From Pseudomonadota bacterium (GTDB taxonomy: Bacteria > Desulfobacterota > QYQD01), in contig DSAQ01000171.1 in the NCBI GenBank assembly GCA_011046395.1, forward strand, positions 1 to 40,233: a stretch of 40,233 nucleotides of DNA, in the 5' to 3' direction. The position numbers were made by a program, and so were the translations under genes. Below the pieces are notes generated by a model, which was not told the origin of the DNA, did not search any database, and was given only the letters and a program-made list of their open reading frames with translations. This document shows positions 15,583 through 32,781 of this stretch, in pieces. The stretch's first letter is position 1, and each line of letters opens with the position of its first letter.

Positions 15583-17082
15583 TCAGCCTGCTCCTAATCC
15601 TAATATGCTATTTACAGCCAGTGTTGTTATCTTGAAAAAGTGCACGACGGCATCCGGTGCGATCCCCAAACCGACAGATATAATGGCGGTAACCGTAAGC
15701 GGGACGACCATAAACATCGGAGCCTCGTCAAAATGCGGGTTGACATCATCCAAGGGCTTCTTGAAGAAAGCCTTATAAATAATGGGGAAAAAGAAGGCTA
15801 CGTCCAGTAAGGCGCTAAATAAAAGCACTACCAGAAAGACGATCTCCTTAGCCTCTAAGGCCCCCAGACACAGAAACCATTTACTTATGAAGCCATTTAC
15901 CGGCGGAACCCCTGCGAGGCCCATAGCGCCTATAGTAAAGGCGCCGAAGGTAAGCGGCATCTGCCTGCCCAGGCCGTCCAGTTGACTAACATACTCCTTG
16001 TGGGTTTTGACATATATGGCCCCGGCACAGAAAAATAGGGTGATTTTCATAAAACCATGGAAAGCCATATGCAGTATTCCACCGGTAATACTGCTCTTCG
16101 ATAATAAAGCAGCTCCCAAAATCATAATAGAGAGGCAGTTTACCGTCGAAAATGCCAGTCGCCGCTTGAGATGATCCTGCCCTAAAGCCAACAATCCGGC
16201 AGCAAGTATGGTGAAGGAAACAAAATAGGCCAGGGGCAACCACAATTGCAGATCAGTGAGAACCTTGGGACCAAAGACATAGAGGATAACCCGGAGACAC
16301 CCAAAGACGCCGGCCTTCACCACGGCCACGGCATGGAGGAGGGCGCTGACCGGTGTGGGAGCGACCATGGCCGTTGGTAGCCATTCGTGCATGGGCATAA
16401 TACCGGCTTTGACACCAAAACCGAGTATAAGGGTTATCAGGAGCAAGGTCAGCATGGCCGGGGTTCCATGACCGGCCAGAAAGCCGCCCGGTGTAAAGTC
16501 CAGGGTGCCGGTCAGGCTGTAGATCATCGCTGCTGAAAACAGTATCAGAGTACCGCCGGTCAGGGTATAGAGGAGATACTTCCGGCCACCCCTAACGGCC
16601 TCCGTGGTCTCTTTATGAATTACCAGTGGCCAGGTGGAGATAGTAAGAATCTCATAGAAAACAAACAGGGTTAAGAGATTAGCGGAAAAGGCAATGCCGA
16701 TGGCCGAAGACAGACACATGGCAAAGGCAAAAAAATAACGTGTCTGGGCATGCTCATTCAATCCCCTCATGTAGCCTATGGAGTAAAAAGAGGTAGCGAT
16801 CCAGAGGGTGGAAGACAGGAGGGCAAAGACCATACCGAAAGGCTCTACCCTTAATTGCAAAAGGAGGCCGGGGGCTATGGGAAGGATGGTATATTCTATA
16901 ATCTTCCCGTCTAACACTAATGGAACCATCGAAACTACAATAGAAAATTTAATGACTGCAGCCAGAATCGTCCAAAATTCCCGGAGATTCTTTTGCCTTT
17001 CGCCGGTAAGAAGAATCAGCGGGGCAGCAATCAGTGATACCAGAACAGCAAGTAGCGGCTTTATTGAATATACGATTTCCAT
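15583..17082 (-). CDS. mrpD: Antiporter-type subunit (MrpD/NuoN-like), second paralogue
   Basis: A 499-residue, about 14-TM subunit of the Mrp cation/proton antiporter. FVFYEILTISTWPL supplies the TM5 Glu; GFGVKAGIMPMHEWLPTAM the channel lysine and broken-helix region; HAVAVVKAGVFG the second lysine; and PPVNGFISKW the late loop. All charged residues expected for proton translocation are present. Fifteen bases separate it from the preceding antiporter gene. Subunit letter is tentative because three paralogues share this family. Confidence 0.88.
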   Translation of the reverse strand: MEIVYSIKPLLAVLVSLIAAPLILLTGERQKNLREFWTILAAVIKFSIVVSMVPLVLDGKIIEYTILPIAPGLLLQLRVEPFGMVFALLSSTLWIATSFYSIGYMRGLNEHAQTRYFFAFAMCLSSAIGIAFSANLLTLFVFYEILTISTWPLVIHKETTEAVRGGRKYLLYTLTGGTLILFSAAMIYSLTGTLDFTPGGFLAGHGTPAMLTLLLITLILGFGVKAGIMPMHEWLPTAMVAPTPVSALLHAVAVVKAGVFGCLRVILYVFGPKVLTDLQLWLPLAYFVSFTILAAGLLALGQDHLKRRLAFSTVNCLSIMILGAALLSKSSITGGILHMAFHGFMKITLFFCAGAIYVKTHKEYVSQLDGLGRQMPLTFGAFTIGAMGLAGVPPVNGFISKWFLCLGALEAKEIVFLVVLLFSALLDVAFFFPIIYKAFFKKPLDDVNPHFDEAPMFMVVPLTVTAIISVGLGIAPDAVVHFFKITTLAVNSILGLGAG

Positions 17083-17097
17083 CCTGTCTCCTCCCGG

Positions 17098-18597
17098 TTA
17101 AAAGCTTGCCGGAACCGCAAAGCGAATGATAAAGGCGATAATGCGTTCATTAAAGATACCTAACAAGACTACTCCAGCCGCCAGAATAAGGGTGGGGATA
17201 AGCATACTTAAGGGAAGCTCATCCCGCTTTATCTCCTCGTGTGTCCCGCCGTCGGTGGCATAGGCAGTCACCGGAGGTTCAAGATAGGCATTTTCTATAA
17301 TCCGGAAGAAGTAAACGGCGTTGAGCAGACTGCTAATCAACAGGACCACTATAAAGGCCCACTGTCTTGCATCGATCGCGCCCAAGACTAGATAAAACTT
17401 GCTAAAGAACCCACCGGTAGGCGGTATGCCTATCATGGAGAGGGCGGCGATGGTAAAGGTGCCCATGGTAAAGGGCATCTTTTTATGCAGCCCCCGAAAC
17501 TGCGTAATATCCCGCATACCCATTTTGTACATTATTCCACCGGCCACCAAGAACAGGGTCCCTTTCATAAAGGCATGGTTCAAAATGTGCAGTAAGCTAC
17601 CGGTAAGTCCCATCCGGTTGGCCAGCCCGATGCCCAGCACGATATACCCTATGTTCGCTATGGAAGAATAGGCCAGCATCCTTTTCAAATCGGTCTGGGC
17701 AATGGCCAGGATCGAACCGGCGATAATGCCGCCGGCCGCCACCCAGGTCAGTATCTGAGTTATTGGTATCAGGTCTATAGAAAAGTACGGTTTAAACAAC
17801 GTAAAGAAAATCCGGACCATGAGGTAGGCCATAACCTTGGTGAACATGGGGGCGATAACCGCGCTGGTGACAGAAGGCGCATAGGTATATGAATCCGGAA
17901 GCCACACATGCAACGGGAAGAGCCCCATTTTGACAGCGATTCCCACCGTAAACAAGGCAAAGCCAACCAGCACCGCCTTGTTATGATATAGGTTGGGTAG
18001 TAGCTGGGATAAATCAGCCATATTGAGAGAACCAGTTACAATGTACACGTAGCCGATCCCCAGATAGTAAAAACAGGCTCCAACCGTGCCCATGATTACA
18101 TAGTTGAATGCCGCCATAGGCGCCCCGTCTTCACCCACGGCTATGAGGGCATAGGCGGCGAGGGAGGCAATCTCCAGAAACACAAACACGTTAAAGAGGT
18201 CTCCGGTGACCGTAATCCCGATCAGGCCGGCCACAAGGAGGAGAAAGATGCTGTAGTAGGGGACTATCTTTTCAGGAATTTCCTGCTCAATACTCCTTTT
18301 TGAGTAAATAGCTACCACCAAGGCGATGAAAGACAGCATTACCAGCATAAAACCGTTAAGATAATCTACCACGTACTCGATGCCCCACGGTGGTTCCCAG
18401 CCGCCAAAGTGGTAGTGAATAGTCCCCTTGGATATGACAGTATTTAAAATCCCAAGGGAACAGATAAAGGATACAAACAAGGCAGCCAGGGTTAAAGGGT
18501 AACACGCCCACCTCTTGAACCACCCCAGCAAGGCAACTGCGAAAGCAGACATCAGGGGGACAATCACAATCAAAACGGCAAAATGTTCGTAAGTCAT
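17098..18597 (-). CDS. mrpD: Antiporter-type subunit (MrpD-like), first paralogue
   Basis: A 499-residue polytopic membrane protein. The family residues are all visible: FVFLEIASLAAYAL (TM5 Glu), VGIAVKMGLFPLHVWLPDSY (channel Lys), MFTKVMAYL, and PPTGGFFSKFYLV. It starts one base after the end of the subunit C gene, the normal mrpC-mrpD order, so this is the best candidate for the true MrpD. Same length as the next paralogue (15583-17082), which suggests a duplication. Confidence 0.9.
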   Translation of the reverse strand: MTYEHFAVLIVIVPLMSAFAVALLGWFKRWACYPLTLAALFVSFICSLGILNTVISKGTIHYHFGGWEPPWGIEYVVDYLNGFMLVMLSFIALVVAIYSKRSIEQEIPEKIVPYYSIFLLLVAGLIGITVTGDLFNVFVFLEIASLAAYALIAVGEDGAPMAAFNYVIMGTVGACFYYLGIGYVYIVTGSLNMADLSQLLPNLYHNKAVLVGFALFTVGIAVKMGLFPLHVWLPDSYTYAPSVTSAVIAPMFTKVMAYLMVRIFFTLFKPYFSIDLIPITQILTWVAAGGIIAGSILAIAQTDLKRMLAYSSIANIGYIVLGIGLANRMGLTGSLLHILNHAFMKGTLFLVAGGIMYKMGMRDITQFRGLHKKMPFTMGTFTIAALSMIGIPPTGGFFSKFYLVLGAIDARQWAFIVVLLISSLLNAVYFFRIIENAYLEPPVTAYATDGGTHEEIKRDELPLSMLIPTLILAAGVVLLGIFNERIIAFIIRFAVPASF

Positions 18598-18598
18598 C

Positions 18599-18985
18599 TT
18601 AGACTCCAGATTTTTTGCGAATTTCTAAAATCTCGTCCTCGGCCAGGGTCTTATACCGGTTATAAACCATGATTATTATGCCCAGGGCCACTCCGGTGGT
18701 TGCGATACCCACCACGATGGCCGTAAGCATCAGGACATGGGGCAGTGGGTTCATGTAGTGAAGTGGATTGGCTGATCCGTGGAGATCCTCCGCTGTAAGT
18801 ATGGGTATGGAGGCCCCAACCTTAGACCCGATGGAAATGTAGAAGAGTATTATTGCCACCTGAAAGATGTTCATACCAATAAGCTTTTTTACCAGATTCT
18901 TCTTCCCGATCATGCCGTAAAGACCAAGCATCATCAGAAAGATATAAACCCAGTAATTATATTTACTGACAATGTACTCAAACAT
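18599..18985 (-). CDS. mrpC: Mrp subunit C (NuoK-like)
   Basis: A 128-residue protein with three hydrophobic segments and the family pattern GLYGMIGKKNLVKKLIGMNIFQ in the first loop, then LPHVLMLTAIVVGIATTGVALGI. NuoK-like subunit that sits between antiporter modules. The start overlaps the preceding gene by 8 bp; the downstream antiporter follows after one base. Confidence 0.9.
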   Translation of the reverse strand: MFEYIVSKYNYWVYIFLMMLGLYGMIGKKNLVKKLIGMNIFQVAIILFYISIGSKVGASIPILTAEDLHGSANPLHYMNPLPHVLMLTAIVVGIATTGVALGIIIMVYNRYKTLAEDEILEIRKKSGV

Positions 18986-19271
18986 TGCTTTCTCCCTCGC
19001 CCCTCTTTTTCTTCCGTAACATCAGGATACAGGCCATCCCTGCCGTAAAGATAACCGTAGTCTCCCCCATGGTGTCATAGCCCCTATAGTCGGCCACTAC
19101 GGAAGTGACTATATTGGGTGTGCCCGCCTCTATATACGTGCCCTGTGTATACCGGGGGGCAACATGGACGCTGCCTGGCTGATTCGGGTCGCCCCACTTG
19201 GGAAAATCCTCTGCCCCGTATACGAGCATGACACCGGTTATGATTACCGTGAGCAAAGCAAACACTTTCAA
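18978..19271 (-). CDS. MbhE-like subunit
   Basis: A 97-residue protein with an N-terminal TM, a polar periplasmic stretch and the conserved segment NIVTSVVADYRGYDTMGE followed by a second TM. This segment is typical of MbhE and of the matching part of MrpA/MrpB. It replaces one piece of the long MrpA C-terminus found in single-gene Mrp systems. Overlaps its neighbours by 4 and 8 bp. Confidence 0.85.
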   Translation of the reverse strand: MKVFALLTVIITGVMLVYGAEDFPKWGDPNQPGSVHVAPRYTQGTYIEAGTPNIVTSVVADYRGYDTMGETTVIFTAGMACILMLRKKKRGEGESNV

Positions 19272-19513
19272 TCTTTCGACCTCCTTTTGGTCTTATGGAC
19301 TGCGGCGATAAACAGGACGGTGCCCACACCAGCCCCCACGCAGGCCTCGGTAAAGGCCACATCCACCGCCCCCATCTCGGTATAAATCAGGCACATGAAG
19401 AAGCTGAAGGATCCAAGGATAATCGTAGCACCCAAGAGATCTTTTATCTGCAAAGCCGCAATGCCGGTTATAACCACAAAAAGAAGTAGTATGAGATCCA
19501 GTGGCAGTATCAT
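19268..19513 (-). CDS. MbhD/DUF4040-like subunit
   Basis: An 81-residue, three-TM protein of the NuoJ-related DUF4040/MbhD family, with the characteristic MGAVDVAFTEACVGAGVGTVLF. In classical MrpA this sequence forms part of the C-terminal extension; here it is a separate gene, overlapping mrpG and the MbhE-like gene by 4 bp each. Confidence 0.88.
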   Translation of the reverse strand: MILPLDLILLLFVVITGIAALQIKDLLGATIILGSFSFFMCLIYTEMGAVDVAFTEACVGAGVGTVLFIAAVHKTKRRSKD

Positions 19514-19872
19514 TCCTTCTCCACCTCCTTAAACTGATGCTCCAGAGTCCAGGGTTTTACACCGCACCGGAAAGCGGCGCGCGTTATGGCATGGGTAGAT
19601 ACGGGACCGGCCAGAAACCAAAATATGGCGATGAAAATGATCTTAATGCTCACGAGAATACTGGCAGTCGAAAATCCACCGCTGAATGCAGTATAGATAG
19701 CCAGGCCAATAAGTGATAAAAGCACGGCGAGGGTATCACCCTTACCAGTAGCATGCATCCGGCAGAAAAAGTCAGGCAGACGTAATAGCCCTACGGTTCC
19801 TCCTGTGAAGAAAAGCAGACCTAACAGAAGAAAAACTGCCGTCAGTATCGATCCTATGGTCAAGGTGGTCAT
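19510..19872 (-). CDS. mrpG: Mrp subunit G
   Basis: A 120-residue, three-TM protein with the MnhG/MrpG signature GTVGLLRLPDFFCRMHATGKGDTL (split here by description: GLLRLPDF and HATGKGDT). Essential accessory subunit of Mrp complexes. Two bases separate it from mrpF upstream, and it overlaps the MbhD-like gene by 4 bp. Confidence 0.92.
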   Translation of the reverse strand: MTTLTIGSILTAVFLLLGLLFFTGGTVGLLRLPDFFCRMHATGKGDTLAVLLSLIGLAIYTAFSGGFSTASILVSIKIIFIAIFWFLAGPVSTHAITRAAFRCGVKPWTLEHQFKEVEKE

Positions 19873-19874
19873 TA

Positions 19875-20150
19875 TTACACTTCCCCCCTCATCTCAAAAT
19901 ACTTGGCCGCGGCCAAGGTGCCGATAAAGTTCAAGAGGGCGTAAACTATGCTGATATCCACAAACATATCCACCCGGTCGTATATGAAACCCATAAGGAG
20001 CAAAACAATCAGCGTCTTGGTCCCGATAGCACCGACGCCCACTATCCGGTTAGTAATAAATGGCCCCAAGATAGCCCGGTAGAGGCAAAGTAATACCAGA
20101 AAGCTTAAAGCGATGCTCACACCCATAAAGAATTGCTGCATATTAACCAT
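19875..20150 (-). CDS. mrpF: Mrp subunit F
   Basis: A 91-residue, three-TM protein with the MnhF pattern YRAILGPFITNRIVGVGAIG and DMFVDISIVYALLNFIGTLA. Follows the degraded activator gene after 33 bp. Confidence 0.92.
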   Translation of the reverse strand: MVNMQQFFMGVSIALSFLVLLCLYRAILGPFITNRIVGVGAIGTKTLIVLLLMGFIYDRVDMFVDISIVYALLNFIGTLAAAKYFEMRGEV

Positions 20151-20183: not shown

Positions 20184-21143
20184 TCATGACCCTCTGACAA
20201 CTGAAGAAGGACTACCCGCCAGATTGTATTTTTTTAACTTCGCATAAAGCGTGCTTCGGCTGATCTTGAGTCTCTTGGCTACCTGGAGTTTATTCCAGTT
20301 TTCCTCCCGCAACATCTTCAACAGAAATCTTTTTTCATTGTCTTCGAATGAGACTATTCCCTCTCCCTCTTCTCTGGTCACTTCATTACGCAGTCTGGGA
20401 ATGAGATCGTCCTGGTCAATCAACTCGTCTTGAGTCGTGAGGTAAGCATATTGGACAGTGTTCTCCAGCTCCTTGACATTACCAGGCCAGGAGTAATCCA
20501 TTAAGAACCGCATGGCCTTCGGAGTAATCTTTTTGGTAACCCCTTTATTCTCAGCGGATAACCGCTCCATAAAATATTCAACCCAGAAAGGTATGTCTTC
20601 TTTTCTCTGTCTCAGGGGCGAGATATATATATTTATGATGCTGAGCCGGTAGTACAGTTCTTCATTAAACGTACCCTTCTCCACTTCCTCTTTTAGATCC
20701 TTATCCGCAGCCGTTATCATGCGTACGTTTACTCTAATCTTGCCCCCGCCACCGGGCCTTTCAAATTCCATCGCTTCCAAAAATTTTAGAAGTCTGACCT
20801 GAGATAAAGGGAGTACCTCGTCAATATCGTTTAAGAAGACTGTGCCGCCATCAGCTCTTTCAAGTCGCCCCTTTTTGTGATGCCTGGCGCCCTTAGCAGT
20901 ACCCTTTTCATAGCCGAAGAGTTCATTTTCCAGTAAAGACCGGGGATAAGCTGAACAATTAATCACCACAAACGGTTTGTCTCTCCGGGAACTATGTCCA
21001 TGTATGGACTCAGCCACCCATTCCTTCTCTGTCCCATTTTCCCCCTGGATCAGGACGGTAACATCCGTAGGCGCAAGATTTAAGATCATGTTATAGACTT
21101 GCTGCATTTTTATAGATTGTTTCTCGATGTCTTCGATATCCAA
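20184..21143 (-). CDS. Degenerate sigma-54 activator (AAA-Fis) inside the mrp operon
   Basis: About 319 residues: an AAA+ domain of the sigma-54 activator type followed by a Fis helix-turn-helix, no receiver domain. Every key motif is altered while the fold-defining sequence stays aligned: Walker A GENGTEKE (for GESGTGKE), the sigma-54 loop GTAKGA (for GAFTGA), Walker B VFLNDI (for IFLDEI), sensor I TAADKD (for ATNKE), FNEELYYRL (for FREDLYYRL) and GNVKEL (for GNVREL). It cannot be expected to hydrolyse ATP or contact sigma-54. The DNA-binding end ([20 protein letters not shown]) is intact. Closest relative in the window is the intact activator 28912-30789, suggesting duplication and loss. 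Start chosen at TTG 21143 after AGGAAGGG; a GTG at 21227 inside mrpB lacks an RBS. Confidence 0.85.
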   Translation of the reverse strand: MDIEDIEKQSIKMQQVYNMILNLAPTDVTVLIQGENGTEKEWVAESIHGHSSRRDKPFVVINCSAYPRSLLENELFGYEKGTAKGARHHKKGRLERADGGTVFLNDIDEVLPLSQVRLLKFLEAMEFERPGGGGKIRVNVRMITAADKDLKEEVEKGTFNEELYYRLSIINIYISPLRQRKEDIPFWVEYFMERLSAENKGVTKKITPKAMRFLMDYSWPGNVKELENTVQYAYLTTQDELIDQDDLIPRLRNEVTREEGEGIVSFEDNEKRFLLKMLREENWNKLQVAKRLKISRSTLYAKLKKYNLAGSPSSVVRGS

Positions 21144-21201
21144 TCTGCCCTTCCTATGCCTTTTCTTTCTTTGCCTGGTTATATTTATACCTGTATATTT
21201 A

Positions 21202-21654
21202 TTACTCCCGTTCAGGGGGCAATCCACCGGTGGAAATATCGTAGACTAAAGAGGTCATAACAGCCATGACTCCGAAGCCAACGCCTGTCTCCACAAAAAG
21301 GATGCCCAAGGCCCTGGCCTTAGCCACAGTCACCGGGAAAACCTTTACTAACTGACTGTAGTCCAGAAAGTTTCCGCCCAGGGCCAGGCAGAGGGCCCCG
21401 GTCCCGGAATAGATCAACAACCCCAGGCAGAGAAATATGATGTCAGCCTTTTCGGACAACCGCCTCCTGGCCGTATCCAGCCCGAAAGAAATGACCATAA
21501 GGATAAAACTGGCTGCCAGTATAACGCCCCCCTGGAATCCGCCCCCCGGGCTGTAGTGCCCATGGGCAATAACATAGAGGGCATAGAGCTGTAAAAACGG
21601 CGCCAGCACCCTGGTAAGGGTCTTTATAATTATATCCTCGTAGGTTATTATCAT
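21202..21654 (-). CDS. mrpB: Mrp subunit B
   Basis: A 150-residue, four-TM protein of the MnhB family with LYALYVIAHGHYSPGGGFQGGV near the N-terminus, a highly conserved loop, and FVETGVGFGVMAVM near the C-terminus. Standard Mrp subunit. Its 3' end is followed by the degraded activator gene rather than mrpC as in classical operons. Confidence 0.93.
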   Translation of the reverse strand: MIITYEDIIIKTLTRVLAPFLQLYALYVIAHGHYSPGGGFQGGVILAASFILMVISFGLDTARRRLSEKADIIFLCLGLLIYSGTGALCLALGGNFLDYSQLVKVFPVTVAKARALGILFVETGVGFGVMAVMTSLVYDISTGGLPPERE

Positions 21655-21693: not shown

Positions 21694-22413
21694 TTATCTC
21701 AAGGCCCCATATATCCGGGCTACATCCAATACATCCTGCACATAGACATGCTCTGCCTCCATGAAGACATGGGCTACCCTGTCTTCCATCTCGCCACCGT
21801 AAAGGAGGTCATAGGCCACGGCCTCATCGATGGCATGCACATAGTACTCTCCGTCTTTGATATCTATAGTGATAGTCCCTGGAGTAAGGGTTATAGAATT
21901 GGCAAAGGTCACCAGAGAAATATCCGTTTGCAATTTTGTCTTAAACCTTATTATCTGGGGATTTATAGGCATCTTGGGGCCTAAAACGATCTTGAGTACG
22001 TGTATATTGGCAAGGTAAATCTGATATATCAACCAGGGAATATAGGCAAAAAACCTCTTCACTATGGTGCGCATATCCCCCAACCGAACGTTAACAAACA
22101 GGAGATCATGAGATATATAGGCAACCAGGGCACAGCAACCCACCCCGATGCTGAGGTGGAAAACATCAAAGTAGCCTGAAAGCGGCATCCAGAAGGGAAA
22201 GAATAACAATGCAAAGGTAGCCAGAAAGCTCAGGACCTCAGATTTAGTCCGCTCCGCTCCCTTAAAGATGGACTGAATTTTCCTCTCCTCAAGAAGCTTG
22301 GCCTCGGCTGTAAATTTAACGGAGGTATTGAGTACGTCTAAAGCACGATTTCTGGCCTCATCTATGATCTTAAAGGCCTCGTCTGTAGCCTGGATTAACA
22401 CCGTCACTTCCAT
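21694..22413 (-). CDS. mrpE: Mrp subunit E with N-terminal extension
   Basis: A 239-residue protein; the MnhE domain occupies about 60-230 (FFPFWMPLSGYFDVFHLSIGV, IPWLIYQIYLANIHVLKIVL, NSITLTPGTITIDI). Typical MrpE is about 160 residues. The first 58 residues are hydrophilic and helical (DEARNRALDVLNTSVKFTAE) and have no counterpart in standard MrpE; a cytoplasmic docking role is possible. First subunit gene after the usp gene, 85 bp away; the spacer contains a CTCTGTCTGTGG repeat word. Confidence 0.9.
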   Translation of the reverse strand: MEVTVLIQATDEAFKIIDEARNRALDVLNTSVKFTAEAKLLEERKIQSIFKGAERTKSEVLSFLATFALLFFPFWMPLSGYFDVFHLSIGVGCCALVAYISHDLLFVNVRLGDMRTIVKRFFAYIPWLIYQIYLANIHVLKIVLGPKMPINPQIIRFKTKLQTDISLVTFANSITLTPGTITIDIKDGEYYVHAIDEAVAYDLLYGGEMEDRVAHVFMEAEHVYVQDVLDVARIYGALR

Positions 22414-22498: not shown

Positions 22499-23278
22499 TT
22501 AAGGAATAAATAATGTCGGGACTACCGTTTCCTCCGCTACCTTATATACCGTCCGGCCCGGAAAGATCTTCCGTACAGCGGCCTTCCGGCTGTTTCCCAT
22601 GACGATCAGCGTGGCATGATAATCCTGTGCCGCCAGCATAATCTCCTCAGCCGTCCGGCCGGCGTAAATATGAAATTCCGCGTCTATCCCTTGAGAAGAA
22701 AACATCCGGCGTGTGTCCTGGAGCTTTTTCTTAAGCCCCCGCATCTCACCCACGGTCAGCTTCTCTTTAATAACATTCACGATATCCATTTCCTTTATGA
22801 GGCCGTTAAGTCCCAAGATAAAGGAGGTCGCCCGCTCTGAGGCCGGCGACCAGTCGGTGGCAAAAACCACGTGATCAAAGACTCCCGCAACCGGAGGCTG
22901 CGCCATTTCCCCCGCTTGCCTGGCTATCAAAACGGGTACAGTCAATCCCTTAACGAGGCGCCTGATAGCACGTCTGGAAACCGCTCTTGCGCCATCACTG
23001 CTAACCTCTGCCGCCACAAGCGAAAAATTGTTACCACTGGCCACTCTTAAGATGGAAGCAACAAGATTTCCTTCTTCCCCATGGGTCCAAACTTTGGCTC
23101 CCAGGCTGGAAAACCGCGTTTCCCAATCCTGGGAATAGCGTTCGGCCATAATTTTACCTCCGGCATGGAGAAACACCACCTCTCGCAGCCCCACCTTTGT
23201 GGTCTCCAGCAGCGACTCCAGTAACCTACTCTTGGGTTCGTCAAGATTTGTTGCATAAAGCAATCTCTCTAACGCCAC
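22499..23278 (-). CDS. Tandem universal stress protein (UspA family)
   Basis: A 259-residue protein with two UspA domains (about 3-118 and 133-259), of the kind that binds ATP or other nucleotides and modulates stress responses. The second domain keeps VVFATDWSPAS and the nucleotide-site-like VMGNSRKAAVRKIFPGRT; the first is degraded in the G-x2-G-x9-G region. The start is GTG with GGAGG six bases upstream. It heads the usp-mrp transcription unit, behind the sigma-54 promoter at 23425-23440, and is divergent from a second tandem Usp gene. Confidence 0.88.
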   Translation of the reverse strand: MALERLLYATNLDEPKSRLLESLLETTKVGLREVVFLHAGGKIMAERYSQDWETRFSSLGAKVWTHGEEGNLVASILRVASGNNFSLVAAEVSSDGARAVSRRAIRRLVKGLTVPVLIARQAGEMAQPPVAGVFDHVVFATDWSPASERATSFILGLNGLIKEMDIVNVIKEKLTVGEMRGLKKKLQDTRRMFSSQGIDAEFHIYAGRTAEEIMLAAQDYHATLIVMGNSRKAAVRKIFPGRTVYKVAEETVVPTLFIP

Positions 23279-23424: not shown

Positions 23425-23440
23425 AGCAACTTCTGTGCCT
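23425..23440 (-). promoter_or_regulatory. Sigma-54 promoter of the usp-mrp operon
   Basis: Minus strand reads AGGCACAGAAGTTGCT: GGCAC and TTGCT with GG and GC exactly ten bases apart, a near-consensus RpoN site. The start would be near 23413, giving a leader of about 135 nt before the usp GTG. Confidence 0.75.
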
Positions 23441-23541: not shown

Positions 23542-23648
23542 TGTACAATTTTAGTACATCATAGATTCCTAGATTTGGATAATTCCTGTATTTTAAATAC
23601 TAAATTCCTGTACAATATTTGTACACGAATCTGTATTTTTATTGTACA
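23542..23648. promoter_or_regulatory. Cluster of TGTACA-type palindromes (candidate enhancer)
   Basis: Three 17-bp sites share the frame TGTA...TGTACA or TGTAC...GTACA: TGTACAATTTTAGTACA (23542-23558), TGTACAATATTTGTACA (23609-23625) and TGTATTTTTATTGTACA (23632-23648), plus the palindrome GTATTTTAAATAC (23588-23600). They lie roughly 140-230 bp upstream of the sigma-54 start, where activator sites normally are. The 23279-23832 gap otherwise holds only the two promoters. They could instead be operators of the divergent usp gene. Confidence 0.55.
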
Positions 23649-23798: not shown

Positions 23799-23838
23799 AC
23801 AAAACGTTTTTCATCTTTACAGGGGAGGATGTGTGAAT

Positions 23839-24705
23839 ATGCAAATTAAGAAGCTACTCTTCGTAACCGACTTCGAGGAATTGTGGTTTGATGCCCTTCA
23901 GTCGCTGATGGATCTTCGCAAGGTGGGTCTTAATCACGTAGTATTTTTACATGTAATAGAGAGAGAAAAGGTGGCCATGCGCCGGGGAACCGGCTATCTT
24001 AAGAGTGAAGAACTAAAACTCAAAGAAATGGCCAATGTCCGGTTTATCAATTGGGCGGAAAGCCTGTTTGAAATGGGCATGGAATGCGGCGCCTACGTCG
24101 TAGTGGGTGACCCGGTCCCCAAGATATTATCCACGGCAGAGGTCGAAAAAGTAGATCTGATTGTCACCGGTCGCCACAAAAAGGCCAAAATGAAGGGGCT
24201 CTATATAGACTCCCAGACCCTGGAGCTTCTCCGGAGGACCACTGTCCCTGTCCTGGTCCATAAATACATGACCAAAGACGGCAAGATCAACAAAGCCCCC
24301 TTCGAAAAGCCGCTTCTGGCCACAGATTGGTCTGCCCCCTGTGCCAGGGCGATAGAATACCTCCTGGGGCTAAAAAACATAATAAAGAAAGCAGAGATTA
24401 TACATATCCTGACCGAAAAAGATATGGAAGGGCGCTCTAAGACAGAGCTGCAAAAGATAGAGAAGGAAAGCAAAAAGCGCCTGGAAGAGGTTCGCCTGAC
24501 CCTTGAAGGGGCCAAGATTGAGGCCGATACCCACCTTTACGTAGGAAAAGTCGTGGACCAAATAGAAACTGCGGCTCGCGAGCTTGACGCCACTATGATC
24601 GTCACCGGGACAACCGGAAAAGGCGCCTGGAGGGCAAGGTGGTTAGGCAGTGTCTCGCACGAAGCAGCAGAAAGATTGGATTTACCCACCCTCCTTATTC
24701 CATAA
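23839..24705 (+). CDS. Tandem universal stress protein (UspA family)
   Basis: A 288-residue protein with two UspA domains (about 2-140 and 152-288). The second keeps LLATDWSAPC and the nucleotide-binding-like IVTGTTGKGAWRARWLGS (G-x2-G-x9-G-S pattern); the first has VTGRHKKAKMKG, which is degenerate. It is a divergent partner of the Usp gene at 22499-23278. I use ATG 23839, ten bases after AGGGGAGG; GTG 23833 is an alternative. A strong bidirectional terminator follows. Confidence 0.88.
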   Translation: MQIKKLLFVTDFEELWFDALQSLMDLRKVGLNHVVFLHVIEREKVAMRRGTGYLKSEELKLKEMANVRFINWAESLFEMGMECGAYVVVGDPVPKILSTAEVEKVDLIVTGRHKKAKMKGLYIDSQTLELLRRTTVPVLVHKYMTKDGKINKAPFEKPLLATDWSAPCARAIEYLLGLKNIIKKAEIIHILTEKDMEGRSKTELQKIEKESKKRLEEVRLTLEGAKIEADTHLYVGKVVDQIETAARELDATMIVTGTTGKGAWRARWLGSVSHEAAERLDLPTLLIP

Positions 24706-24770: not shown

Positions 24771-25163
24771 CTAGCCTAATATCTTTTTTATTGTCCTCGC
24801 CAGTTCTTCCGGCTCCGCCGGCTTCTCCAGATAGGCCGCCGGCTCAGGCACGGCCTGTCCGCCGAACTCTGTCAGCGCGGCCTGAGAGCGGAGGAAGGTC
24901 CGTTTGGCAATCCCGGATAAGATAACTACCGGTATGCCTTTTAAAGCATCGTCCGTTTTTAGCCCGCGATACATTCTAATTCCACTCTCTCTCGGCATTA
25001 AAACATCCAAAATGATCAAATCGGGTTTATCTCCCCTTACCTTGGCCATCGCCTCTTCACCATTTGTCGCCACAATAGGCGTATAGCCGTTTGTCTCGAC
25101 AACGGTGGTAACAAATGTCCTCACATCAGCATCATCATCCACAACAAGCACCTTTTTCCCCAT
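24771..25163 (-). CDS. Single-domain response regulator
   Basis: A 130-residue receiver domain with no output domain: acidic pair DDD at 9-11, phospho-acceptor in LIILDVLMPRESG, LSG (T/S switch) and EKPAEPEEL (KP) motifs. RBS GGGAGG. Last gene of the leftward signalling cluster, 52 bp after the REC-PAS kinase. The loop AALTEFGGQAVPEPAAY before the KP is longer than usual, as in a subfamily of Desulfobacterota receivers. It may shuttle phosphate or act on a target protein directly. Confidence 0.9.
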   Translation of the reverse strand: MGKKVLVVDDDADVRTFVTTVVETNGYTPIVATNGEEAMAKVRGDKPDLIILDVLMPRESGIRMYRGLKTDDALKGIPVVILSGIAKRTFLRSQAALTEFGGQAVPEPAAYLEKPAEPEELARTIKKILG

Positions 25164-25215
25164 GATATATCCTCCCTGTGTTTTTTAAAAAACTCTATCC
25201 TCCGGCCTTCATGCA

Positions 25216-26736
25216 TCAGACGTTTTCTCTCAACGGAAGGCGAATAGCAAAAGTTGACCCTTTTCCAGGCTCCGATTCTACAGTGATGGTTCCACCGTGT
25301 TCCTTGATTATCTTCTGTGTCACAAGCAGTCCTAATCCGGTGCCCGCGCCACTCTTGGTACTAAAAAAAGAGGTGAAAATCTTGTTCTTAACCTCCTCAT
25401 CCATACCACAGCCATTGTCAGAGACCTCAATCACCACTGTATCCTTATCCTCAAGGGCTGTCTTTACTTCTACAACGCAATCCTTTTTCCTGTCAAGGTC
25501 GAAATGACAGGCGTCAATGGCGTTGGAGACCAAGTTGAGCACACAGCGGTGTATTCCCTTTGGGTCTAAAGCTACCTCTCCAATAGCCTGGTCAAAATTA
25601 CGAATTATTTTTACGCCGACCTCTTGAGCCGCTAACTCCATAAGGGCACAGACTTCACCGGCAATGGTATTTAGAAAACACCTCTGGTAGTCGGGTTCGC
25701 GTTCTTTGGAATAATTGAGCAAATCCATAACCAGATCAGAGACCTTGCCGATGTTGCGGTTGACCATATCCCAGCCGGTCTTTAGCTGTTCGGGGTTGTT
25801 ACTCTTAAATGCGGTATTTACCACATAAACCCCCCCTTTAAGCCCGTATAAAATATTCTTAACGCAATGGGCCAGGCCGGCTACGGTCTGGCCTATGGCG
25901 GCCAGCCTTTCCGACTCGATCAATTCCTGTTCCAGACGCTTGATCTCTCTTAAATCCTGTAAAAATCCGACGCTTCCCACTACCTCCTCTTTTTCGTACA
26001 GTATAGCGCCGGAAAACCTTACCGGCATCTCCTGACCATCTTTAGCCTTAACATTTATTTCTTTCCACCTGAAGATATGTTCTTCTCCGTATTTCTTGCC
26101 ATATAATCCTTCTTTGATCTCCCGAGCAATTTCTGTTGGATAAAGGGCATCTATAGCCATTCTCCTTATGGCCTCCAGGCGGGAATAACCGAATATTCTT
26201 GAGGCCCCCTCGTTGAAAATTACTACACTGCCCTTTTCGTTAGTAGCCACTATGCCATCGATAGAGGCCTGGATAAGCTTATCCTCAAATTCATATCTTC
26301 GCCTCAACTCCTCTGTGGCCGCTTTTACCATACTTTCCAGATCATGGGTGTACTCTTTTAGCCTCCTTTTCATCTCCAGCTTCTGCTCGGCCCTTTTAAG
26401 GGCTATGGAGAGGGCATCATCGCTTACTGGCTTGGTGATAAAATCAGAAGCGCCCAGTTGTAGGGACCGAATAGCCACTTCCATGTCTCCGTGTCCGGTA
26501 ATAACTATCACCTCTGTGTCCGGTGCAATTTCCTTAACTCTTTTTAAGACCTCAATGCCGTCTATACCAGGCATCTTTATATCAGTAAGAACAATAGGAG
26601 GTAGATTCTGGCGGAATGCTCCCAGACCTTTTTCACCATTTTCCGCCGCCAAGACCTGGTAGCCGTCTTTCCTTAATGAGAGGGATAAAACCTTCCTTAT
26701 GCCTTCTTCGTCATCAATCAGTAGCAGTGTTGACAC
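25216..26736 (-). CDS. REC-PAS histidine kinase
   Basis: A 506-residue cytosolic kinase. Receiver domain 1-120 (D52 in LTDIKMPG), coiled coil about 120-150, PAS domain about 152-265 (ASIDGIVATNEKGSVVIFNEG), dimerisation helix with H290 in GLAHCVKNILYGLKGG, and HATPase domain with N-box NLVSNAIDA, DNGCGMD and GTGLGL. No TM segment. Its receiver plus coiled coil is closely similar to that of the activator at 28912-30789, so one module has been joined to two outputs. It lies one base after the membrane kinase gene, so they are co-expressed and probably form a phosphorelay. Confidence 0.92.
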   Translation of the reverse strand: MSTLLLIDDEEGIRKVLSLSLRKDGYQVLAAENGEKGLGAFRQNLPPIVLTDIKMPGIDGIEVLKRVKEIAPDTEVIVITGHGDMEVAIRSLQLGASDFITKPVSDDALSIALKRAEQKLEMKRRLKEYTHDLESMVKAATEELRRRYEFEDKLIQASIDGIVATNEKGSVVIFNEGASRIFGYSRLEAIRRMAIDALYPTEIAREIKEGLYGKKYGEEHIFRWKEINVKAKDGQEMPVRFSGAILYEKEEVVGSVGFLQDLREIKRLEQELIESERLAAIGQTVAGLAHCVKNILYGLKGGVYVVNTAFKSNNPEQLKTGWDMVNRNIGKVSDLVMDLLNYSKEREPDYQRCFLNTIAGEVCALMELAAQEVGVKIIRNFDQAIGEVALDPKGIHRCVLNLVSNAIDACHFDLDRKKDCVVEVKTALEDKDTVVIEVSDNGCGMDEEVKNKIFTSFFSTKSGAGTGLGLLVTQKIIKEHGGTITVESEPGKGSTFAIRLPLRENV

Positions 26737-26737
26737 G

Positions 26738-28831
26738 TTAACTCTCCGATGTCTGATTATGGACGGGGAATCTCAATTCAAAAGTTGTGCCGAGATCTGC
26801 TTCACTCTTTACATCTATGGTTCCCCCGTAATCGTGAACAATTCCATAACTAATGGACATGCCCAGTCCCGTACCCCTGCCCACCTCTTTAGTGGTAAAA
26901 AACGGCTCGAATATCTTGTCCTTAACATTATCAGGAATCCCTATCCCGGTATCGGATACCACAACTACAACCTGCCCATCTTCCAGAAATGACTTTATAG
27001 TTACAGACATTCCCCCGGCCTCTGGACCCATCTTTTCAACCTTCTCATCTATGGCATCCAGCGCATTAGTCACTAAATTGATGAAAACCTGCTCTAGCCT
27101 GTTGTGATCAGCCATTATAGGAGGTAAGTTCTCGGCCAATTCCAGCCTAACCTCTACTTGATGCAGTCTTAGTTGCTGCCCCAGCACCTTAAACACGTCT
27201 CTAATGGGTCCATTAATATCTAGTGGCGACTTCATCGGCATGGATACTCGAGAAAACTCTCGTAAATGATTAATAATCCCGGACGCCCGGTCCACATGAC
27301 TGTTAATTTCCTCGGCCACAGTCTTCAACTCCTCGATATCAATCTTTTCGCCCCGTTTAATCACTTTCAAAAGGAAATCACTCCCAATCTTGAGTACGTT
27401 TAACGGCTGATTCAATTCATGGGCAATACCAGAGGCCATGGTACCGATAGTGGTCATCTTACCGGCCTGAATGAGCTGGGCCTCTTTTTCCACGCTTTCC
27501 GTAATATCACTCGTCGCTACAATTAATGCGTCCATTCCCATGTATCTTGCCGGACAAACGGTAATGTTCACATAAAATGAGCGCCCATCTTTATGTGTGT
27601 GCCTTTTCTTCGTAAAGAATCCGCATTGCCCGGGCGAAAGCTCTTTGAACCCCAATATAACCTCTCCTGTTGGTTTATGTCCTAGACTGTCAAAGGACAT
27701 TTCTAATAATTCTTCCCTTGAGTAACCATAACGTTCTAAAGCCCTCTCGTTAACGTCCAGTATCTTGAAATTATCCCTTCCTATAATAAAAATAGGGTCG
27801 GGATTAGCATTAAATAAAAGCCTGTATTTTTCTTCCGATGTCCTGAGTTCCTCCTCGTAAGCATTCAACTTATAAAGCATGTGCTGAAAGGAGTCCTGAA
27901 GCCTGATTATTTCATCCCCTTTATGCTGCTGATAAACGGCACATTTAGCGCATTCTGCCAGTTTCTCGGGAAATTTTCCCGAAGGTTCTCCTCTGCATAA
28001 CGTACCCGATACATACCAGCACGGAATTCTATTGCTCTTGTACGCAGGACAATTCATTTTGTCACAGTCTAATAACGCCCAACACTGTATCGCCCGCCCG
28101 GGAAGTTTCTCAGAGCCGAGGATATATCTTCCATGGCTGATCTCGTCAGCCGCTTGGGTTAAACGGACAAGGGGCCGGGTGACATATCTGTTTAACCACA
28201 GGGTCAGAAAAAAACCAACTACAGTTAACGACATCATGGCCATAATTATATTCTGGTCTCGTACCGAGGTTAGTGTCTTCTGAATCGGATCCCAGCTAAA
28301 GCCGACTGATAACACTCCCAAAACATGTTTTTCAGACCCATGACATTTATAGCATACATTTTCATTATGGATGGGAATGGAATAACGTAATATCTTCATG
28401 GCCTTAGGATCAAGCGGCTTTGTCTCCATCCCCTGGGCTAATTTGCCTGCGCTAAGCGCTTCCCGCGTGATTTTAGAGATTGCTTTTCTATTTATATCAT
28501 GGCGGTCTATCCCGTTATATTTGATGACACCGCTATCATCACAAAGATGAACTACTTCCAGGTCTTCAAGGGTGCCCAGCTTTTCTAATATGGCCTGTAC
28601 CTTATCCATATCGCCATCAAGCATTGGATACTCTATACTCTTCATGACGGTGTCACTTATTTCCAGGGCCATTTTCTTATTTTCTTTAGTATGACGCTCA
28701 ACCTGGGTAATCACGATATAATAGTTAAAAGCACCCATCACGGTAAGCAGGATTAAACCTACGCCCAGTATTATCTTGGCCCTTAAACTTCTTAAAATGA
28801 ATCTATCTTTAAAATTTGTCCAAAAGGACAT
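26738..28831 (-). CDS. Membrane histidine kinase with c-heme motif and Cys-rich module
   Basis: A 697-residue sensor. TM1 about 18-42, periplasmic sensor about 43-193 carrying CYKCH (C160, C163, H164), the covalent heme c motif; TM2 about 194-216; HAMP-like region; then a cysteine module at 250-297 (C250, C256, C261, C271, C279, C294, C297, with two CW pairs) resembling the so-called two-CW domain and placed to bind iron-sulfur or zinc; PAS about 333-445; kinase core with H471 in GIAHELNQPL and HATPase motifs NLVTNALDA, DTGIGIP, GTGLGMS. Heme and cysteines point to redox or NO/CO-type sensing. RBS GAGGT. It lies between the sigma-54 activator (80 bp upstream) and the REC-PAS kinase. Confidence 0.92.
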   Translation of the reverse strand: MSFWTNFKDRFILRSLRAKIILGVGLILLTVMGAFNYYIVITQVERHTKENKKMALEISDTVMKSIEYPMLDGDMDKVQAILEKLGTLEDLEVVHLCDDSGVIKYNGIDRHDINRKAISKITREALSAGKLAQGMETKPLDPKAMKILRYSIPIHNENVCYKCHGSEKHVLGVLSVGFSWDPIQKTLTSVRDQNIIMAMMSLTVVGFFLTLWLNRYVTRPLVRLTQAADEISHGRYILGSEKLPGRAIQCWALLDCDKMNCPAYKSNRIPCWYVSGTLCRGEPSGKFPEKLAECAKCAVYQQHKGDEIIRLQDSFQHMLYKLNAYEEELRTSEEKYRLLFNANPDPIFIIGRDNFKILDVNERALERYGYSREELLEMSFDSLGHKPTGEVILGFKELSPGQCGFFTKKRHTHKDGRSFYVNITVCPARYMGMDALIVATSDITESVEKEAQLIQAGKMTTIGTMASGIAHELNQPLNVLKIGSDFLLKVIKRGEKIDIEELKTVAEEINSHVDRASGIINHLREFSRVSMPMKSPLDINGPIRDVFKVLGQQLRLHQVEVRLELAENLPPIMADHNRLEQVFINLVTNALDAIDEKVEKMGPEAGGMSVTIKSFLEDGQVVVVVSDTGIGIPDNVKDKIFEPFFTTKEVGRGTGLGMSISYGIVHDYGGTIDVKSEADLGTTFELRFPVHNQTSES

Positions 28832-28911: not shown

Positions 28912-30789
28912 CTAGCCTCTGTCAGCAGTAACCCCGGAACATTCTATATGGTATTTTTTGAGCTTGGCATAAAGGGTGCTACGGCTGATATTTAACTTCT
29001 TGGCCACCTGGAATTTATTCCACTGGTATTGCTCCAACATCCTGGTAAGAAATCTCAGTTCATTTTCTTCAAAGGAACTTACATCTTTCCCTTTATCAAG
29101 GCCAAACCGCAAGTAAGCCGGGAGGCTTTCTTCCGTGATAAACTCTCCTTTGGTCAATATAAAGGCGTGTTCGATGGTGTTTTCCAGTTCCCGGACATTG
29201 CCTGGCCAATGATAGTCCATCAACATCCGCATGGCCTCCGATGTAATACCCATAACCTTTTCCCCCTGGCTGGCATTCAACTTGGCCAGGAAGTGCCCGG
29301 CCAGGAGGGGAATATCATTCTTTCTGGTGCGCAAAGGAGGTAAACTTATGGGGATGATATTGAGACGATAATAGAGGTCTTCTCTGAATGCACCCCTCTC
29401 TACCTCCTTCCGCAGTTCCTTGTTAGTAGCCACAACAATCCTTATATCCACTTTAATGGCCTCCTCGCCCCCTACTCTCTGAAATTCCTGAGTCTCAAGG
29501 ACCCGTAAAAGTTTGACCTGAAAGACCGGCGGGATTTCCCCTATTTCATCCAGAAAAATCGTACCGCCATGGGCACGCTCAAAACATCCCAGCCTCCGGC
29601 GCACGGCGCCGGTAAAAGCGCCCCTTTCATGGCCAAAAAGCTCACTTTCCAGCAGGGTAAGGGGATAAGAAGAACAATTAACCGCTACAAAGGGTTTATC
29701 TTTGCGCAGGCTGTTCATATGAATAGCCCTGGCTATCAATTCCTTGCCGGTACCACTTTCTCCCTGAATGAGGACAGTCACGTTAGTAGGCGCCACGTCC
29801 CCGATGAGGTCATAAATCTGCTGCATCTTATGGTCCTTGCCGATAAGCTCACCGTATCTTGAAAACCTTGCGATCTTGTTATGCAAGTCCCGCAGCTTTT
29901 CGTCCTGTAAAACAATCCGGCGGACCGTCCCCGCTGCCTGTGAAACCATAAGATATACGAACCTGACATCTTTCTCTGAAATGGCCTCACGACTATAAAT
30001 CACGATATTGCCGATAACATCACCATGTTTCACGAGGGGGATGAGCACCCGGAGCGGCCTATTTAATCCCTTAACGCACAGGCTATCAAACTGGATTTCT
30101 TTGAGCGTTATTGGCTCGACTACAGAGGCGAGCTCCCTTGCCTCGGTAGTTCCCATTTCAGACCCTATCGGCTCATAGCCTTCAACGGCAACAAAACCAT
30201 CCTTCCGTCCATTAAAGATTAAGGGCTGTACGTGCTGATAATTAATGAACTCGCCTACCTTGCCAATTATAAAATCAAGCACCTCTTTTAAAGAGGTCTT
30301 GTCGCTGATATGTTGATAGATGTTATAGAAGGCCTCCATCCCTTTATAAGTCTTCTCAAGCTCCCTGGTCTTTTCCCTGACTAGATTCTCCATGTTATCG
30401 GTATATTCCCGGAGTCTGGCCCTCGTCTCCAGTCTGTTTTCAGCCCGGGCCAGGGCAATGGAAAGCGCCTCGTCACTCACCGGTTTAGTTATGAAGTCAG
30501 AGGCATCCAATTGGAGTGACTTGATGGCCAGGTTCATATCTCCATGGCCGGTAATGACTATAACCTCTGTTTCCGGTCTGGTTTCTTTAACCTTCTTTAA
30601 AATTTCAATGCCATCCATACCGGGCATTTTTATATCGGTCAGGACTATATCCGGCTGCTCGCCTTTCAACAGTTCCAGGCCCTTCCGACCATCTCCGGCC
30701 AACAAAACATTATACCCGTCATTCCTTAAAGAAAGGCCTAAAATGTTTCTTACGCCTTCTTCGTCATCGATTAACAAAAGCTTCCGCAT
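28912..30789 (-). CDS. Sigma-54 response regulator (REC-GAF-AAA-Fis)
   Basis: A 625-residue activator. Receiver 1-120 (D52), coiled coil to about 150, GAF-like domain about 152-295, AAA+ domain with Walker A GESGTGKE (343-350), GAFTGA (390-395), Walker B IFLDEIGE (411-418), [14 protein letters not shown] and GNVREL all intact, then a Fis helix-turn-helix ([18 protein letters not shown]). First gene of the leftward cluster, followed by the heme kinase that probably phosphorylates it. It is the natural candidate for driving the sigma-54 promoter at 23425. A GAF domain adds a possible second ligand input. The degenerate activator at 20184-21143 is its paralogue. Confidence 0.93.
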
Positions 30790-31047: not shown

Positions 31048-32781
31048 ATGTTTGGGTGGACAGGCAAAATACTAAGGGTCGATTTGACTCACAAGACCAT
31101 CGAGGAGGAAAAGCTTGACCTCCATGAAAGGGAACTGTATTTAGGTGGCCGTGGTCTGGGGGTAAAATGGGTCTATGATCGTGGGCCGGTCGAGCCGTTG
31201 GCGCCGAATAATTTGCTGGTCTTTGCGGCCGGTCCCCTTACCGGCACCGGCACGCTGGCCTCTGGCCGCGCCACCGCGGTATCCAAATCACCGTTAACAG
31301 GCACCATCTGCTACAGCAACGCAGGTGGTACATTCGGCGTACAACTGAAAAAAGCGGGTTATGATGCCATAATTATAGATGGCACCTCTCCAGAACCACT
31401 TTTTCTGGAAATTGAAGGCGATCAAGTAGCTCTAAGGAATGCTCAAGAACTGTGGGGAAAAAATACCGGACAGGTCTTTGATTACCTCAAAGATTATAAG
31501 GCCGTGCTTTGCATTGGCATAGCTGGAGAAAAAAAGATCCCTCTGGCCTCTATAATGCACAATCGCTCCCATGTCTTTGGCCGAGGTGGACTGGGCGCTG
31601 TAATGGGCGCTAAAGGACTCAAGGCCATCGCAGTCAATGGTAACGGTAGGGCGCAAATAGCCAGGCCAGAAGAATTTAAAACCCGCCAGGAAAACTTGAG
31701 AAAAATCCTTGTGGCCAGCCCAGTTCTAAAAAATCTCTCCTTTCTTGGAACGCCGAGTCTGGTCAAGGTAATTGATTGGGCCGGGCTCCTGCCCGTAGCC
31801 AATTTCAGAAAAACGTCCTTTCCAGAGGCTGATCTTCTAGCGGCAGAGGCCTTGAGAAAATTATTCAAACCAAGGAGCCGGGCCTGCCTTGCCTGTCCCG
31901 TGGCCTGCAAGAAGGAAACACACGACCATATCCCTCTGCCGGAATATGAAACCTTAGGCATGTTCGGCCCCAATAATGAAAACAGCACCCTGCAATCTAT
32001 TGTCAAGGTTAATCAAATCTGTAATGACTACGGTCTGGACACAATCAGCGTTGGCTCTACCCTTTCTTGCTACGCCGAGATAAGAGGCCAGAAGCTTAAC
32101 CCAACCGAGACTTGCGATCTAGTCAAGAACATTGGTGAGGCAAGCGGTCCAGGTGCTACCTTAGCCGAAGGTTCACTGCATTATGCCCGGGCCCAAAACC
32201 GAAAAGAGGCTTCGATGACCGTTAAAGGGCTAGAACTCCCAGCCTACGACCCACGTAAAGCTTACGGCCTAGCGCTGGCCTACGGGACATCTAGCCGGGG
32301 CGGATGTCACTTGGGAGCCTATATGGTTGCTCCGGAGGTGCTGCGTAAGCCCAAAGCTATTGAGCCACGCACCTTCACAGGCAAGCCTTCTTACGTGGCC
32401 ATATTTCAAGATACTTTTGCCGCTGTAGACTCTCTGGTAGTATGCAAGTTTGCCTACCTAGGGGCCGGACAGGAAGAATATGCCAATATACTGACTGCCG
32501 TAACCGGCGAAATCTTTACAGCAGACGATCTCAATAAGATCGGCGAACGGATCTGGAACCTGGAAAGACTCTATAATATCCGAGAAGGATTTACAAAAAA
32601 TGACGATTTCCTGCCCAACCGCTTTTATGAAAAGACGGGCTTAGAGAACACCTCCGCAGGAAATATCGACCGAATTCATTATGATAAAGCCTTAACAGAA
32701 TACTACCAGCATAGAGGATGGACCAACGAAGGTGTGCCCGGAGACCATAAGCTCAAAAAATTAGGACTATGGAAGAGTTAA
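31048..32781 (+). CDS. aor: Aldehyde:ferredoxin oxidoreductase (tungsten enzyme family)
   Basis: Oxidises aldehydes to carboxylic acids with ferredoxin as electron acceptor (or the reverse), using a bis-pterin tungsten cofactor. The 577-residue protein starts with the family GWTGKILRVDL, has GGRGLGVKW, SGRATAVSKSPLTG and GRGGLGAVMGAKGLKA pterin motifs, and the 4Fe-4S ligands C-x2-C-x3-C in CLACPVAC with a distal Cys in SLVVCKFAYLG. Family length about 600. No Shine-Dalgarno is visible before the ATG, and a TATCAT lies 7 bases upstream, so a leaderless transcript is possible. It overlaps the aldolase gene by 13 bp. Soluble, cytosolic. Confidence 0.93.
   Translation: MFGWTGKILRVDLTHKTIEEEKLDLHERELYLGGRGLGVKWVYDRGPVEPLAPNNLLVFAAGPLTGTGTLASGRATAVSKSPLTGTICYSNAGGTFGVQLKKAGYDAIIIDGTSPEPLFLEIEGDQVALRNAQELWGKNTGQVFDYLKDYKAVLCIGIAGEKKIPLASIMHNRSHVFGRGGLGAVMGAKGLKAIAVNGNGRAQIARPEEFKTRQENLRKILVASPVLKNLSFLGTPSLVKVIDWAGLLPVANFRKTSFPEADLLAAEALRKLFKPRSRACLACPVACKKETHDHIPLPEYETLGMFGPNNENSTLQSIVKVNQICNDYGLDTISVGSTLSCYAEIRGQKLNPTETCDLVKNIGEASGPGATLAEGSLHYARAQNRKEASMTVKGLELPAYDPRKAYGLALAYGTSSRGGCHLGAYMVAPEVLRKPKAIEPRTFTGKPSYVAIFQDTFAAVDSLVVCKFAYLGAGQEEYANILTAVTGEIFTADDLNKIGERIWNLERLYNIREGFTKNDDFLPNRFYEKTGLENTSAGNIDRIHYDKALTEYYQHRGWTNEGVPGDHKLKKLGLWKS

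Follow-up and report, generated by a model that had tools for sequence, protein, structure and literature searches.

Why would a bacterium keep, in the middle of an operon for a sodium/proton pump, a gene for a sigma-54 activator-like protein in which nearly all of the catalytic motifs are altered? The question is raised by a 40,233-nucleotide stretch of DNA from a Desulfobacterota genome (contig DSAQ01000171.1 of assembly GCA_011046395.1), which is referred to below as the window. An initial annotation had interpreted the product of this gene, here called X, as a possible competitor or anti-activator that would bind the same enhancer sites as the intact activator encoded at 28912 and give the Mrp antiporter operon negative feedback. 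This interpretation is partly supported by the comparisons of sequences reported below and, among the readings that we weighed, appears to be the most likely one.

An activator-like gene inside an Mrp operon

X occupies the downstream part of an open frame that spans 20184-21227 on the minus strand (Table 1). Its most likely start, and the one initially assigned, is the TTG at 21143, which is preceded by GGAAGGGC and lies ~59 nt past the mrpB stop; TTG or GTG stands at this position in all 15 orthologues with an assignable start, and homology among the orthologues sets in at this conserved codon. A TTG/GTG start has thus been kept in X, perhaps holding its level low.

The product is matched in Pfam by Sigma54_activat (187 bits), AAA_lid_14 (82 bits) and HTH_8 (42 bits), in agreement with the intact frame and the intact Fis-type helix-turn-helix (HTH) first described for this gene between mrpB and mrpF. 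No receiver domain was found in X by the Pfam scan, and an NCBIfam scan returned nothing above any cut-off. The layout, an AAA+ domain followed by an HTH and lacking any N-terminal domain, is that of PspF, which differs from X in being an active ATPase and activator restrained by PspA. In an AlphaFold2 model (mean pLDDT 84.7), X adopts an AAA+ fold that matches ZraR, NtrX and NtrC1, and the fold is accordingly predicted to be kept.

Among the genes downstream of X, mrpF was identified by Pfam scan, and the others were named from their sequences and synteny. The mrpE of this operon type encodes an N-terminal extension of ~50 residues, which most of the remaining MrpE matches from the phylum leave uncovered. 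The identities of the response regulator and kinase genes between usp2 and the activator come from inspection of their sequences, and these genes are syntenic across the X-bearing loci. Elsewhere in the window, a second intact sigma-54 activator domain is encoded at 3382-3882, near the other end, and the gene divergent to that of the activator (31048-32781) looks, on reading its sequence, like a tungsten-dependent aldehyde ferredoxin oxidoreductase.

Table 1. Features of the X locus in window coordinates
Feature	Position	Strand	Remarks
mrpF, mrpG, mrpB-like pieces, mrpC and two mrpD-like genes	15583..20150	-	downstream of X
X	20184..21143	-	319-aa protein of AAA+ (Sigma54_activat), lid and Fis-type HTH; catalytic motifs altered
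Fis-type HTH of X	20220..20354	-	intact; recognition helix identical to that of the activator
Sensor II of X	20460..20489	-	WPGNVKELEN; NVKELEN vs NVRELEN in the activator
Arginine finger (R-hand) of X	20640..20669	-	FNEELYYRLS, differs from the activator
Sensor I of X	20694..20717	-	ITAADKDL vs VVATNKEL in the activator (general form xxATNKxL)
Walker B of X	20823..20837	-	FLNDI vs FLDEI
L1 loop of X	20886..20903	-	GTAKGA vs GAFTGA
Walker A of X	21021..21044	-	GENGTEKE vs GESGTGKE in the activator
mrpB	21202..21654	-	directly upstream of X
mrpE	21694..22413	-
usp1	22499..23278	-	universal stress protein; the operon begins with this gene
Predicted sigma-54 (-24/-12) promoter	23425..23440	-	AGGCACAGAAGTTGCT, of the usp1-mrp operon
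Enhancer-like palindrome	23542..23558		TGTACAATTTTAGTACA, at -118 to the promoter
Enhancer-like palindrome	23609..23625		TGTACAATATTTGTACA, at -185, perfect match
Enhancer-like palindrome	23632..23648		TGTATTTTTATTGTACA, at -208, 2 mismatches
usp2	23833..24705	+	divergent universal stress protein
Single-domain response regulator and two histidine-kinase-like genes	24771..28831	-	between usp2 and the activator
Activator (mrp-NtrC), intact paralogue of X	28912..30789	-	response regulator and sigma-54 activator, catalytic motifs all canonical

Altered catalytic motifs across 17 genomes

When X was compared with the intact paralogue, all six motifs that the initial annotation had listed as changed, namely Walker A, GAFTGA, Walker B, sensor I, the arginine finger and sensor II, were found to differ (Table 1). 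In Walker A, the Gly before the invariant Lys is replaced by Glu in 17/17 orthologues (one of them in two pieces), and every X carries GTEK, reading GxxGTEK where the consensus is GxxxxGK; the Lys itself is retained. The L1 loop reads GAFEGA, GAFYGA or similar in other X orthologues and is deleted in one (genome G529), the DE pair of Walker B is replaced by ND, NE, NN, SE, TE or CE, and all copies that cover sensor II have N[VI]KEL. In place of the RxDxxxR of the R-hand, the X orthologues show NxExxxR/M or LxExxxR: the residues FN at the finger are found in every X except that of G076 (FL), and the second R-hand Arg, equivalent to PspF R168, is kept in the lineage of the window and replaced by Met in most of the other orthologues. 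Furthermore, 15 positions that are invariant in 11 mrp-type activators never hold that residue in 16 X sequences. Seven of these 15 are catalytic or sigma-54-contact residues: the Ser and Gly of Walker A, the Thr of GAFTGA, the Asp of Walker B, R162 and D164 of the R-hand, and the Arg of sensor II.

In PspF, the K42A change of the Walker A Lys impairs ATP binding, and changes at R162, D164 or R168 cause a drastic drop of ATPase activity together with constitutive hexamers (PMC3419264). These mutant results, combined with the motif losses, strongly imply that X has no ATPase. By its features, X would be a pseudo-ATPase that descends from the bEBPs, and it should not be classed among the sigma-54 activators.

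The 17 genomes with X orthologues belong to four families, and in all of them X is located in the same Mrp operon. They comprise the window's genome and three others of its genus (one with X split over two contigs), families f50 (three genera), f163 (one) and f38 (one), the rest being contigs from Desulfobacterales or 'Deltaproteobacteria' MAGs. The gene lies between mrpB and mrpF, and just upstream of mrpE in G076. No internal stop was found within the X gene in any of the 17 genomes, and the stops that the genome search flagged for some of the orthologues fall upstream of the conserved TTG/GTG start. Between the window and its relatives, dN/dS of X is 0.13-0.30 over the whole gene and 0.10-0.22 over the AAA core, within the range of the neighbouring mrp genes. 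The altered motifs are therefore conserved in orthologues under purifying selection, which the initial annotation had named as a point to check. A search for the contrary signs given there (no orthologues, orthologues riddled with stops, or close relatives with the motifs intact) detected none. Recent decay and sequencing error are ruled out by the recurrence of these lesions in all 17 genomes.

It is scarcely credible, too, that X is a functionless remnant in slow decay. Most of its catalytic motifs are gone and one orthologue has even lost the L1 loop, as would befit a remnant, but the gene persists across these genomes and families with no internal stops and at the dN/dS values given above, and its HTH is conserved as strongly as that of the active paralogue (mean identity of 80% among X orthologues vs 78% among activators).

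Two of the assemblies are composite in appearance. The operon of G529 (L152, L013) is a mosaic in which X, 79% identical, and mrpE/B/F/G are like those of the window's genus, the activator is of the f50 type, the kinase, usp and mrpD genes are more diverged, and the L1 loop of X is lost; it seems to represent either a foreign X working with a resident activator or a mixed MAG. In G003, the pieces L095 8061-8718 and L096 3-410 both break within X, and the end of the first piece resembles another activator, which suggests that the assembly is chimeric across the conserved AAA region.

A duplicate of the neighbouring activator

In a maximum-likelihood tree, X forms one clade (support 100/99), which clusters with the mrp-type activators from these loci and stands apart from the other sampled activators. 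The tree thus agrees with the initial view that X and the activator at 28912 are paralogues, and this grouping indicates that X is an old duplicate of that activator; the duplication may have preceded or followed the split of the G076 activator (support 93/77).

The HTH of X is held tightly and the AAA core more loosely. X retains 18 of the 23 HTH positions at which the activators are invariant, vs 46 of 112 such positions in the AAA core plus lid, and the mean identity of the AAA core is 63% among X orthologues vs 74% among activators. The recognition helix of X and the activator is common in related activators too, so that a DNA site shared by the two proteins is supported, not proven.

In a survey of 395 genomes from the phylum and 243 from one order, the closest activators (> ~400 bits with the X profile) were found only in X-bearing genomes. 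Seven other genomes contain the same type of operon (usp1, mrpE with the N-terminal extension, mrpB, mrpF and so on) without X, most of them with a response regulator and several with kinases. In the stretches examined, none of these seven operons has an adjacent mrp-type activator or an AGGCAY-N5-TTGC promoter ahead of usp1-mrp; for some of the seven, the absence carries less weight because the contigs are short. Thus, X occurs where the activator and the sigma-54 promoter occur, rather than wherever the antiporter is found, and X as a generic mrp-operon gene is ruled out by the seven sister operons that do without it. This co-occurrence, together with the absence of X from the sister operons, provides independent support for a link between X and the activator. 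In one of the X-less genomes (G046), a longer and different intact EBP (an 874-aa frame, L186 10423-13045) is encoded upstream of a second mrp cluster.

A sigma-54 promoter with enhancer-like sites

The motif AGGCAY-N5-TTGC is present upstream of usp1-mrp in 10/10 loci with a comparable intergenic region, and phased palindromes accompany it in these ten loci. Within the window, the bare promoter pattern is no commoner than expected by chance, and the promoter prediction is supported by the conserved position and by the enhancer-like sites. The initial annotation had placed enhancer sites at 23542-23648, and three are indeed present there, conserved and, at <=1 mismatch, unique in the assembly. 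The pattern TGTACA-N5-TGTACA has 5 matches in the window, including these three upstream sites, vs 0.67 expected. The positions of the palindromes are conserved within the genus, and related sites are located at ~-101 and ~-166 in other families; G076 has its own promoter, TGGCACATCTTTTGCT, with similar palindromes at -91, -155 and -179. In the 2.73-Mb assembly of the window, only two sites with <=1 mismatch were found, both at the usp1-mrp control region (the third enhancer site has two mismatches), and there is none elsewhere at that threshold. The genome carries rpoN. If X reads the same sites as the activator, its own operon would be its main target. For the activator gene itself, neither a sigma-54 promoter nor sites pointing to autoregulation were found upstream of 30789.

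It appears improbable that X acts independently of sigma-54, for example as a repressor or as a sigma-70-type regulator of usp2 or of another promoter. The enhancer-like sites do lie between two divergent genes, and GAFTGA-less bEBPs (including one from Vibrio), which like X have kept the bEBP fold and the HTH and lost the sigma-54 contact loop (PMC10274813), can act at sigma-70 promoters without ATP hydrolysis. However, the GAFTGA-less NtrC proteins of Rhodobacter capsulatus and Caulobacter, which work at sigma-70 promoters, need ATP binding (PMC10274813), and X has lost the respective motif; of the two features that mark such proteins, X shows the loss of GAFTGA but not the retained ATP-binding site. 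Moreover, the GAFTGA-less bEBPs have a receiver domain and serve sigma-70 promoters, whereas X is encoded in a sigma-54 operon beside an intact paralogue. The near-perfect palindromes in the window's assembly occur only at this sigma-54 operon, and X is missing where the sister operons have neither such a promoter nor an adjacent activator.

A putative feedback brake

We propose that X probably functions as a feedback anti-activator on the enhancers of its own operon and possibly also poisons the rings of the activator. The activator, presumably phosphorylated by the neighbouring kinases, would occupy the TGTACA-N5-TGTACA sites and drive the sigma-54 promoter, and the active operon would then yield the Mrp antiporter along with a little X, a low level of X being probable because of the weak TTG/GTG start. 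X, which has kept the DNA-reading helix of the activator but lost the residues that serve to bind and hydrolyse ATP, to trans-activate a neighbouring subunit and to contact sigma-54, would fill the enhancer sites without the ability to open the promoter, and the output of the operon would be capped. Additionally, X may enter mixed rings, in which each interface between X and the activator would be without an ATP site or an arginine finger. The synteny, the promoter and the sites all place X inside the operon of the very activator that it would restrain.

Of the two actions, we favour site occupancy as the main one, given the tight conservation of the HTH and the looser conservation of the AAA core. 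One observation counts against the proposed anti-activator role: the selection on the AAA core exceeds what a pure DNA competitor would need. This remaining selection suggests that the core still does something, for instance oligomerise.

The same observation bears on the main rival explanation, namely that X is a hetero-oligomeric partner that aids the activator by binding the enhancers tightly and nucleating or stabilising rings, with both proteins needed for activation. A co-activator role would fit an AAA core that is under purifying selection with a fold predicted to be intact, the finding of X only together with the activator, and the constitutive hexamers that result from R-hand changes in PspF. 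There are also published precedents in the paralogous bEBP pairs VnfA1/VnfA3, HrpR/HrpS and FleQ/FleT, which are described as co-activators (PMC9542535). The partners in these pairs interact and share promoters; X differs from them in the loss of the ATP site and the R-finger. With both halves of the ATP site altered, the interfaces between X and the activator are expected to be inactive, and a needed factor that is made, from a weak start, by the operon it activates would pose a bootstrapping problem. We therefore regard co-activation as unlikely.

Alternatively, X could sense a ligand or a protein, such as Mrp subunits or the ion status, in its altered pocket and relay this to the activator, making the inhibition conditional. 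Such a sensor would explain why the Walker A Glu has stayed invariant instead of drifting and why selection acts on the AAA core, but X has no identifiable sensing domain, and we consider this possibility very improbable.

Feedback inhibition by a paralogue has to be set against what is known of comparable systems, among them the several paralogous EBP pairs above, which activate jointly instead of inhibiting. As in the case of X, two EBPs of Desulfovibrio vulgaris, DVU2956 and DVU2960, are associated with one sigma-54 promoter, and DVU2960 is encoded inside the operon that DVU2956 activates (PMC4641369). In DVU2960 (GAFPGA), only the Thr of GAFTGA is reported to be changed and no negative role was shown (PMC4641369), whereas in X nearly all catalytic motifs are affected. 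DVU2960 failed to bind the upstream region of the operon in EMSA (PMC4641369), and an inactive FleQ allele had no dominant-negative effect (PMC4020848), so negative feedback is not automatic. In X, the recognition helix is that of the activator. A functional likeness to the proposed role of X is offered by FleN, which acts on FleQ as an anti-activator of a bEBP and is made within the same regulon. FleN is not a paralogue of bEBPs and has no Fis-type HTH. In the open-access literature, to which our search was confined, we found no published dead bEBP paralogue. We consider it an evenly balanced question whether X represents a dedicated class of sigma-54 regulators, in which a dead bEBP duplicate of the cognate activator is fixed in the target operon as a feedback brake on one promoter, through enhancer occupancy and/or ring poisoning.

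Known restraints on sigma-54 activators come from partner proteins or from the activators' own receiver domains. If X acts as an anti-activator, the output of a sigma-54 promoter would here be set in another way, by a conserved dead paralogue whose expression is controlled by the activator of which it is a copy. It would also offer a simple test case for paralogue interference, for the residual functions of a pseudo-AAA+ protein and for the tolerance of bEBP rings to dead subunits, because the near-perfect sites seem to be confined to one place in the genome. For these relatives of sulfate reducers, in which X is set in a sodium/proton pump operon, capping that operon would make sense, since too much Mrp would be likely to disturb the ion gradients.
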